This document shows, one piece after another, positions 7,728 through 11,821 of a stretch of 11,821 nucleotides of DNA (its first letter is position 1; the number at the start of each line of letters is the position of its first letter). Under the pieces are notes generated by a model that saw only the letters and a list, made by a program, of their open reading frames with translations, did no database searches and was not told where the DNA came from. The stretch is from Prevotellaceae bacterium (lineage in GTDB: Bacteria > Bacteroidota > Bacteroidia > Bacteroidales > UBA932). Made by a program: the position numbers and the translations under genes. The stretch spans positions 1 through 11,821 of the forward strand of contig JAITVR010000048.1 of NCBI GenBank assembly GCA_031285695.1. Direction: 5' to 3'.

Positions 7728-7799
7728 AGTTTATAAAGTTCGTAAAGTTTTTAAAGCTCATAAAGTAACTTTCTTTTTACTTTACAAACTTTATAAACT
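7728..7799. repeat. Iterated-word inverted repeat, AAGTTTATA family
   Basis: The left part is four 9-nt words in tandem with core AAGTTTATA (from 7729). The 21-nt left arm 7728-7748 matches the complement of 7779-7799 at 20 of 21 positions. Inside is a small palindrome AAAGTAACTTT (near 7762). It lies between the ftsX stop (7806-7808) and the DUF3098 start (7719). Block 7728-7749 is identical over 22 nt to 11459-11480, about 3.7 kb away. No T-run follows it on the transcribed strand. Confidence 0.85.
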
Positions 7800-7805
7800 T
7801 GCAGC

Positions 7806-10341: not shown

Positions 10342-11433
10342 TTACTTTCTCAGCGCCAGCCGGCACACCAGCGGGTAGTGGTCGGAGTAGCGCACGTTGG
10401 GGCAGTAGTACGCCGTGGCGCAAAAGCGCGCATTGTACAGTATGTAGTCTATGCGGAAGGAAGGAATTACGCTCACGTAGGTGGACATAATGCCGCGGCC
10501 GGCCTCCATAAATCCATCGCGCAGCTTGCCGCGAATGCTGCGGTAGGTGTACGATACGGGCGTGTCGTTAAAATCGCCGCACACCACCACCGCGTAGGGC
10601 GAGCGGCGCATGTGCTCGGCCACCTCGTTTACCTGCCGCGCGCGCTGCGCAAAGGCGGTTTTGAGCTTTCCCGAAATGCCCTTGAGCACCCGCCGCTTGT
10701 CGGTTTTGTTGTTGAGCAAAAATGTTTCGTCCGTCAGCAAATCGCGCTCGCGGCCGCTAAATCGGTTGGACTGAAAGTGAAGGTTGTACACCCGCACCGT
10801 GTCGAAGGGGAAAACAATGTCGGTAAAGGTGGCGGCGTTGGCAGTGTTGGCAAAGCTAATGCTGCCCTTGCCTACAATGGGGTAGCGGCTAAAGGTGGCC
10901 AGGCCAAAATTGTGGCTGGTGCGCTGCACATTGTAGTGCACGTAGCGGTGCGGCAGGCGCGCGAGTTTTTCGGCAAACTGCTGCTCTGTTTGCGCGCCGC
11001 GGCGCACGCCAAATTCTTGCAGGCAAATCAGGTCAAACTTTTCGCGCGCCACAAAATCGGCAATTTTTGCGTGCGAGGTCGAGTCGCGCTTTGTGCCCAG
11101 CATGTTCACGTTGTAGCTGAGCAACTTTAGCTGCGGCTGCTCGGTTTTTACCTCCTCTTTTTTGCCGAAAGGCAGGCGAACGAGCGTGAGCGTGTAGCTG
11201 TTGCACAGCAGCACTACTGCAAACGCCAGCAGCGCATCTTTCCATTTTCTGAAAAACAGCCACAGGCCAATGAAGGCAATATTGGCCACCAGCAGCGGCG
11301 CAAAGGCTAAGCCAAAAAACGGCAGCCACCACAGCTGCTCGGGGCTTACGTACGCCGATAGGCACGACAGCCCCAAGGCCAGCGCCAGCGCAAGGTTGGC
11401 AGCGCGTAGGAGTATGTGAATGAGGTGGCGCAA
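10342..11433 (-). CDS. Membrane-anchored endonuclease/exonuclease/phosphatase family protein
   Basis: The product has 363 residues. The N-terminal part (1-85) holds about three hydrophobic segments (11-29, 35-61, 66-84). The rest is an endonuclease/exonuclease/phosphatase (DNase I-like) domain with its metal and catalytic motifs: SYNVN (106-110), LQE (138-140), FSRYPI (181-186), NLHFQS (217-222), GDFNDTP (286-292), RIDYIL (327-332) and SDHYP (350-354). All key residues appear intact. The domain cleaves phosphodiesters in a substrate that may be nucleic acid, phospholipid or another phosphoester; the substrate cannot be told from sequence. Its side of the membrane is not certain. The start is TTG at 11431-11433, since no ATG occurs early in frame and the hydrophobic N-terminus must be included. 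A 9-nt tandem repeat lies directly upstream. Confidence 0.85.
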   Translation of the reverse strand: MRHLIHILLRAANLALALALGLSCLSAYVSPEQLWWLPFFGLAFAPLLVANIAFIGLWLFFRKWKDALLAFAVVLLCNSYTLTLVRLPFGKKEEVKTEQPQLKLLSYNVNMLGTKRDSTSHAKIADFVAREKFDLICLQEFGVRRGAQTEQQFAEKLARLPHRYVHYNVQRTSHNFGLATFSRYPIVGKGSISFANTANAATFTDIVFPFDTVRVYNLHFQSNRFSGRERDLLTDETFLLNNKTDKRRVLKGISGKLKTAFAQRARQVNEVAEHMRRSPYAVVVCGDFNDTPVSYTYRSIRGKLRDGFMEAGRGIMSTYVSVIPSFRIDYILYNARFCATAYYCPNVRYSDHYPLVCRLALRK

Positions 11434-11440
11434 AAGAATT

Positions 11441-11481
11441 AGCTTATAAAGTTTGTAAAGTTTATAAAGTTCGTAAAGTTA
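11441..11481. repeat. AAGTTTATA-family tandem words without an opposite arm
   Basis: Words AAGTTTGTA (11449-11457), AAGTTTATA (11458-11466) and AAGTTCGTA (11467-11475) follow a partial word and end in AAGTTA. Block 11459-11480 is identical over 22 nt to 7728-7749. Unlike that copy, no complementary arm is visible in the next 80 bp, so this is half an element. It sits just upstream of the TTG start at 11433 and forms part of that gene's leader. From 11482 to 11562 nothing else was recognised. Confidence 0.75.
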
Positions 11482-11562
11482 CAAGTTTTAAGTATTCGGT
11501 AGTGAGTAATTTTAGCTGCCAGCTGTCGTGCTGAGCTTGCCGAAAACCCACGTCATTGCGTT

Positions 11563-11814
11563 GGCATGTCAACTTACCCTTTTCGTGGGTTGACATACCT
11601 TTTTCGTAGGTTGACCTACCTTTTTGGTAAGCCAACTTACCTTTTTCGTAGGTTGACATACCTTTTTGGCATGTCAACTTACCCTTTGCCCATGTCAACT
11701 TACCTTTTTCGTGGGTTGACATACCTTTTTGGTAAGTCTGCTTACCTTTTTGCTATGCGCGCATGGTTGGAAGGTATGCGCGCACTATATTTAGCCATGC
11801 GCGCTTAAGCTTAG
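11563..11814. repeat. Array of twelve 21-bp palindromic units
   Basis: Exactly 252 bp divides into twelve contiguous 21-bp units with no indel, starting at 11563, 11584, 11605 and so on. Units 2-9 are closest to one another, and units 10-12 form a variant group around ATGCGCGCAT. Several units contain a dyad with matching arms but different sequence: GTAGGTTGACCTAC (unit 3), GGTAAG/CTTACC (units 4 and 9), ATGCGCGCAT (unit 10). Units 1, 6 and 7 have the core as TGTCAAC, units 2, 5 and 8 as its complement GTTGACA, so both orientations occur. Most units end in CCTTTTT. The period is seven codons, giving open frames on both strands. No gene covers 11434-11821. Confidence 0.9.
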
Positions 11815-11821
11815 TAAAAGC

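Follow-up and report, generated by a model that had tools for sequence, protein, structure and literature searches.

A 21-bp array of dyads and T-tracts in a Prevotellaceae genome: a candidate set of sites for a dimeric DNA-binding protein

An intergenic tandem array of 21-bp units, each consisting of a 16-bp imperfect dyad and a T-rich 5-mer, lies at the right end of the window, which here denotes the entire 11,821-nucleotide stretch of Prevotellaceae DNA that was analysed. Judged from its sequence, the array has about an even chance (probability roughly 0.5) of being a series of sites at which a protein dimer binds. Arrays of the same kind occur elsewhere in this genome and in related genomes, where orthologous arrays carry a position-specific footprint. 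The original prediction had suggested a dimeric protein along one helix face, and this is the best-supported reading: in relatives the motif and T-tract are held between orthologous arrays, the half-sites vary independently, and in four of five matching genomes pairs of dyads lie 21 or 42 bp apart. The features of the window are as follows:

11563..11751, + strand: array proper, units 1 to 9 (TRF, unit table and R3 model matches).
11752..11814, + strand: degenerate units 10 to 12, in the same register, with a ATGCGCGC core and no T5 (unit table; repeated on contigs C8 and C79).
11720..11821, no strand assigned: array end common to C8 and C79 at 98-99%, a repeat of about 100 bp; the window's contig, C192, breaks off here.
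10342..11433, - strand: left neighbour gene, endonuclease/exonuclease/phosphatase family (Pfam PF03372, E 8.9e-24; TTG start as listed).

The window is contig C192 of a 1.48-Mb assembly that is 77% complete, and the right neighbour of the array lies beyond the contig end. The QueA protein encoded here shares 85-86% identity with proteins attributed to Prevotellaceae or Bacteroidales MAGs, which makes a Bacteroidales host probable. The left neighbour gene is transcribed away from the array, which is situated beyond the start of that gene. TRF calls a period of 21 at 11575-11751 (score 149) and a higher-order period of 63 at 11565-11750 (score 246), confirming the 21-bp array at 11563-11751. Each of units 1-9 measures exactly 21 bp, with the dyad preceding the T-rich 5-mer on the + strand, and identity at a lag of 21 bp reaches 120 of 168 positions, compared to 47.7 +/- 5.7 in 1000 dinucleotide shuffles. 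Units 10-12 show 25 lag-21 matches in 42 positions versus 10.3 in shuffles and lack the GTTGACA core. The proposed perfect phasing of twelve units therefore stands for the register, which runs through all twelve, but not for the dyad-plus-T5 unit type, which is confined to the first nine. Within these nine the core occurs in both orientations, as had been noted (GTTGACA is exact in units 2, 5 and 8 and present as its reverse complement in units 1, 6 and 7), while the strand of the T spacer is constant. Also borne out were the CCTTTTT ending of most units (2, 3, 4, 5, 7, 8 and 9, or 7/12) and the lack of unique spacers in the unit table, the spacers being T-rich 5-mers.

Two other kinds of repeat were seen in the window. 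AT-rich 9-bp direct repeats (TAAAGTTTG and relatives) at 11441-11490 and 7728-7800 recur at many places in the genome and are intergenic where viewed (L004), and a dispersed repeat, GCTGTCGTGCTGAGCTTGCCGAAAAC...GTCATTGCG, at 11517-11560, immediately left of the array, has copies on several contigs. Reading frames stay open through the array on both strands. A coding repeat was nevertheless rejected, as none of 1017 candidate proteins scored for the minus-strand ORF and neither strand yielded a Pfam family. No known RNA was matched by Rfam in the window at gathering scores.

At least six further contigs of the same genome carry arrays (C8, C79, C11, C170, C173 and C239), several of them with different dyads. 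The array on C11 mixes 22-bp with 21-bp units, which also counts against a coding repeat since the frame is not kept. By Pfam names, the C8 array lies behind ispH (lytB) and the C79 array between a gene end and a rhomboid-family gene. The stretch shared with the window reaches the stop of the rhomboid-family gene on C79, and a 3' scrap of that gene adjoins the array on C8. Barring a chimeric assembly at this point, the ends of arrays have thus been copied from one locus to another.

Arrays outside this genome were sought with an exact pattern of two adjacent dyads, which matched 11 stretches in the GTDB collection. Eight of these were viewed, the matches in Streptomyces and two Planctomycetes being left out, and five proved to be arrays of the window kind: three in Flavobacterium branchiophilum, one in Epilithonimonas mollis and one in Chryseobacterium sp. 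FP211-J200. An Acinetobacter match was a 21-bp repeat without T5, those in Lachnospiraceae and Clostridia were not arrays, and neither were three pattern matches on viral contigs. Thus, the expectation of further arrays in the same and related genomes was confirmed by the six additional contigs and by Flavobacterium, Epilithonimonas and Chryseobacterium.

Searches of many genomes, run with strict filters and including some weak matches or low-complexity coding DNA, so that the counts are rough, gave matches to model R1 in 7 of 395 genomes of the class and to model R2 in 12 of 395 (own genome included). R2 also matched 15 of 148 genomes of the E. mollis family, two of which belong to its training set, and 8 of 99 relatives of the window, again counting its own genome. 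Matches in G356, G262, G440, G175, G106 (C49) and G313 (C32) were set aside because by eye they resemble low-complexity coding DNA. Among 11 genomes of the window's genus, R2 found the window's own genome and a weak match in G009 (E 0.0147), and no orthologous array.

A third model, R3, was built from 18 segments of other genomes, none from the window's. It matches the window array at 11626-11709 (56.3 bits), 11559-11625 (40.9 bits) and 11710-11792 (38.6 bits), in a test that is not wholly independent, as its training arrays were found with patterns and models partly derived from the window and were thereby selected to resemble it. In 44 kb of the window's genome chosen for holding arrays, R3 gave 10 matches at E <= 3e-5, including the six sister contigs. 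For G013, a relative in which R2 had matched nothing, 400 kb yielded one match (26.5 bits, E 0.005). In E. mollis (1.6 Mb), no match beyond its three arrays exceeded 20.0 bits, the score of the best one.

The dyads are unrelated between genomes, for example GTGGGTTAGCCCAC, GGTGAACTAGTTCACC, AATGAGTGAACTCATT and GGTCATTCGAATGACC, and mostly share a T-rich 5-bp spacer and the 21-bp pitch, in a list that is biased since the models ask for dyads and T-tracts. In G609, a genome of the window's family, tandem AAAAGCTCGCCTGCTTTTTT hairpins with a length of 20-23 bp occur at many loci (L218 and L225-L241); they are A/T-symmetric and strongly resemble terminators. CATAAGTCAGCTTATC arrays were seen there as well. 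Searches of open PMC papers, a scope that takes in few subscription journals, brought up no description of 21-bp dyad arrays in Bacteroidota.

In the E. mollis family, four intergenic array sites are orthologous across two to five genomes each:

Site A, following a conserved small-protein gene: E. mollis, G604, G585, G495 and G488.
Site B, between a thiolase and an Atg22/MFS transporter gene: E. mollis, G495, G466, G604 and G601.
Site C, before an MsbA-like ABC transporter gene: E. mollis and G581.
Site D, between an S46 peptidase and a thioesterase gene: E. mollis and Chryseobacterium.

An array of F. branchiophilum also lies behind a related gene of the site A type (57% identical). The product of the site A neighbour gene (157-160 aa, aligned from five genomes) was considered as the array-binding protein and set aside: searches of Pfam, NCBIfam and PHROGs matched nothing, and PDB sequences gave nothing useful.

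Between orthologous arrays the motif nnTAGGYnnRCCTAnnnTTTn is held while the remaining sequence drifts. Six non-overlapping orthologous pairs gave 657 comparisons at motif columns, 141 of them with a difference, and 403 at the other columns, 195 with a difference (stricter calling of units: 120 of 618 at the motif, 178 of 376 elsewhere), with the register anchored on motif-like units, which favours the motif somewhat, and with columns that are not independent. Difference rates within the motif range from 0.06 (A4, T13) to 0.41 (Y7), and the T columns 19 and 20 differ in 0.12 and 0.18 of comparisons. A set of 99 distinct units, taken from outside the stretch that the model matched best, carries much information at TAGGY, RCCTA and TTT but next to none at positions 1, 8, 9 and 15. 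This profile has mirror symmetry around 8.5 (r 0.95); an equal r results for a centre at 5.0 because the conserved blocks are 7 bp apart (rotations of 7 and 14). The two halves depart from the motif independently: 396 core pairs show 96 one-arm and 14 two-arm departures, against 12.0 two-arm departures expected. Position-specific constraint with two independent mirror halves points to a protein dimer; compensatory changes would be expected of a hairpin under maintenance. This footprint comes from the E. mollis family, and its transfer to the window is based on the shared architecture and the R3 matches rather than on orthologous arrays in the window's genus.

The original prediction held that the dyad arms change together between units of the window array; relative to a symmetric reference unit, four pairs differ on both arms and 14 on one, and the seven distinct dyads form 30 of 42 Watson-Crick pairs compared to 29.2 when right arms are shuffled within the array. 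The matching arm sets that had been noticed are one near-palindrome occurring in both orientations. Arm covariation was likewise not found within 17 arrays (435 of 636 pairs versus 432.3 in arm shuffles) or in the TAGG family, sampled from Flavobacterium, Epilithonimonas, Chryseobacterium and relatives (688 of 1113 versus 689.1; 159 distinct units, 19 arrays), so that the predicted excess of two-arm over single-arm changes did not materialize across these 159 units. An opposite result came from a mixed set of 16 other arrays, with a slight within-array excess of 480 of 847 versus 462.4 (reached in 41 of 1000 shuffles), or 557 versus 539.9 when G.U is counted (27 of 1000). When the shuffling of arms extended over the entire TAGG family, the observed count was attained in 67 of 1000 trials, and in 33 of 1000 with G.U. 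Arms do match strongly between unrelated arrays, but the models used to find arrays require such matching. G.T does not exceed A.C on the T strand in the TAGG family (71 versus 77), the window's genome (12 versus 21) or the mixed set (53 versus 61). A maintained hairpin or cruciform was therefore rejected, given that covariation was absent from the 17 arrays and from the 19 of the TAGG family.

The same data bear on the proposal that the arrays are stacks of small intrinsic terminators, or another RNA element, whose units form a stem-loop with a U-tract on the T strand. The + strand of the window array does contain five such terminator-like sites (six in the region versus 0.8 +/- 1.0 in shuffles) and its RNA folds strongly (z -10.7), but the other strand folds nearly as well (z -8.6), so folding does not choose a strand, and both arm covariation and a preference for G.U are missing. 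Nor is the window array at the 3' end of a same-strand transcription unit: the left neighbour points away, and nothing annotated reads into the array on the + strand. Orientation was counted at 22 loci, leaving out L130, L152-L156, L161-L163, L166, L167 and L182, where the dyad, T-tract or gene call was unclear. For three of these loci the contig shows no gene upstream, and in 13 of the other 19 the upstream gene lies on the T strand, a weak bias (p 0.084) in the direction expected of terminators. However, the 15 loci with both neighbours, a count from which the mixed site A is left out, comprise seven codirectional sense, four codirectional antisense, three convergent and one divergent arrangement, and these mixed orientations, above all the four antisense loci and the divergent one, indicate that the T strand is not tied to gene ends. 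Moreover, the site A array of E. mollis (L125:4013-4243) is flanked by two separate terminator-like hairpins:

L125:3931-3960: terminator-like hairpin after the upstream gene and before the array.
L125:4250-4276: terminator-like hairpin after the array.

In the G604 copy of site A, the scan found only the hairpin beyond the array, and the other was seen by eye. Taken together, the lack of a two-arm excess, the unfavoured G.T, the weak T-strand bias and the separate hairpins at site A speak against stacked terminators or a maintained hairpin as originally proposed, and we regard the terminator reading as improbable.

A different possibility is that the arrays are neutral or selfish minisatellites, in which a near-palindromic 21-bp unit expands by slippage and gene conversion, flips by template switching inside the palindrome and reaches further intergenic sites by duplication. 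This agrees with the copying of array ends together with a scrap of a gene's 3' end, with the higher-order 63-bp repeats and with a patchy distribution in the class (12 of 395 genomes, a count that includes the window's own and some weak or false matches). It also agrees with the pitch of unrelated repeats. When 1.6 Mb of E. mollis, a genome picked because it has arrays, was scanned with TRF, 18 of 30 arrays outside long open frames (no stop-free stretch of at least 120 codons, so that some of the 18 may sit in short genes) had a period of 21-23 bp, 12 of them at 21, making this the commonest period of its noncoding tandem repeats whatever their sequence; in 0.4 Mb of G013, 3 of 15 arrays had a period of 20-21. 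Among the unbiased 20-23-bp repeats, dyads are hardly above shuffles (mean stem 4.06 versus 3.68; 2 of 18 at p<0.05), which suggests that the two-turn pitch is broader than the dyad type. A second 21-bp family on contig C4 of E. mollis, AGTTAAGTAGACTGTTACAGG and its reverse complement, has no clear dyad; its copies number 7 at L320:19630-19775 and 11.6 at L324:16842-17084. What neutral repeats would not lead one to expect is position-specific constraint between orthologous arrays, or the retention of the same sites in up to five genomes, and a minisatellite origin of this kind seems to us possible though rather doubtful. Pairs of TAGGNNNNCCTA dyads, searched at any gap of 2-32 bp, matched 5 of 148 genomes; in four of these all 14 pairs fall at 21 bp (11) or 42 bp (3), and the fifth has 12 pairs within one 33-bp array. 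This 33-bp tandem array containing the TAGGNNNNCCTA dyad is at G571:C1:2085273-2085680 (L202).

The arrays could also be purely structural, acting through phased T-tract curvature or cruciform extrusion and engaging no sequence-specific protein. T-rich 5-mers recur every 21 bp even where the dyads are unrelated, T columns 19 and 20 differ between orthologous units at the low rates given above, and sister arrays with different dyads coexist in one genome, all in keeping with such an element. Curvature, however, does not need the dyad bases that are held within one array family, and the stems are imperfect and do not covary, leaving this explanation very improbable. The different dyads of the sister arrays in the window's genome also count against the protein reading, since they are not explained by one sequence-specific protein.

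Comparison with known systems yields likenesses to several, each with differences. Short intergenic palindromes in regularly spaced clusters and both orientations recall REP/BIME elements, and the window array, like others, is such an intergenic cluster of palindromes. BIMEs bind proteins, and gene 3' ends can be caught up in them (PMC2817692). They differ in having variable inter-REP segments and more than 100 copies, whereas the arrays here keep a fixed 21-bp pitch with T5 and are few per genome. A GTAG tag outside the hairpin stem is described as a defining REP feature in PMC3733652; in the arrays GTAG, where present, lies within the dyad, and other array families are devoid of it. Among genomes with arrays, 17 of 20 contain the Y1 transposase family PF01797, as do 25 of 33 genomes that have none; it had no match in the window's genome, an assembly 77% complete; having no association with this RAYT transposase, the arrays were not assigned to REP/RAYT elements. 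Passages of PMC12306157 give REP counts for Bacteroidota genomes, including two Flavobacterium species, and contain no mention of such arrays.

The parS site of pSM19035 offers another parallel, being an uninterrupted array of short sites in both orientations of which several contiguous repeats are needed; its 7-bp heptads are bound by the ribbon-helix-helix protein omega (PMC9499535). The 7-bp spacing of conserved blocks in the arrays recalls these omega sites and is a lead only. That parS, however, is a plasmid element beside its own par genes, and its heptad consists of a single short word where the arrays have a 16-bp dyad and T5. Among the named neighbours of the arrays no par gene was seen. 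These neighbours (PEP carboxykinase, MsbA-like ABC transporter, amino-acid kinase, thioesterase, thiolase, Atg22/MFS transporter, S46 peptidase, rhomboid, LytB and UvrB) share no common function. Plasmid iterons, to which an initiator binds, are direct repeats with a length near two helix turns. The arrays resemble them in repeat length and arrangement but sit at several chromosomal loci beside housekeeping genes. No array was matched in 72,556 plasmid records, and a plasmid or phage origin was rejected as neither search gave a match. VNTR loci of Flavobacterium psychrophilum are mostly intergenic tandem repeats, one with the unit AATAGGC; the listed units (PMC4501049) are 4-9 bp long and none is a 21-bp dyad. 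A 188-bp Prevotella repeat (PMC4755523) is different from the arrays described here.

A CRISPR reading of the window array was not supported, given its lack of unique spacers, and no cas gene was found by Pfam among the 8 window proteins, the right side of the array being outside the contig. One F. branchiophilum array precedes cas4-cas1, and most other arrays do not. In that region (L120:3154-5813) the array has a conserved small-protein gene on one side and a type V-like cas4-cas1-(cas2) group on the other, with a Y1-transposase-like ORF upstream at 1966-2562 that is weak and below the cut-off. In G125 (L131:5558-7183), repeats (NVIYQSLKSNHN, in an ORF) about 1.3 kb past a dyad array resemble a CRISPR array.

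The data presented above have led us to favour a model whereby a protein reads the arrays as a lattice. Each unit would offer a dyad of two half-sites to a dimer, and the 21-bp pitch, two turns of B-DNA, would bring successive dyads onto one helix face. The T-tract, about one turn from the dyad centre, may add a phased bend, and several dimers bound side by side could form a nucleoprotein patch. We infer the protein itself, its dimeric state and its cooperative binding, and also that the window array would work as the arrays of its relatives do. From sequence evidence, such protein-binding lattices would most likely be architectural, a role favoured because, on the single contig checked, no copy of the motif lay outside arrays: all 10 TAGGYNNRCCTA sites of contig C4 of E. 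mollis (1.6 Mb covered) fall within its three arrays, a weak rather than striking result, as permuted half-sites average 3.2 occurrences elsewhere on that contig. Their purpose may be chromosome anchoring or partition, insulation of neighbouring genes, or titration of a regulator.

To our knowledge, nucleoid-organising and centromere-like sites are little known in Bacteroidota. We would suggest, tentatively and as an idea that may well prove wrong, that the arrays form a chromosomal nucleoprotein class of this phylum, one absent from the literature searched: a fixed 21-bp dyad-plus-T-tract lattice whose word changes with lineage, which is held at orthologous loci between genera and is recognised by a dimer that co-evolves with it and serves to organise or anchor the chromosome. 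If a protein does read them, the arrays would be fixed chromosomal addresses. As they are short and few, the binding protein could be fished out with a 200-bp bait, and the constant lattice with its changing words would allow the co-evolution of a DNA-binding protein and its sites to be traced.
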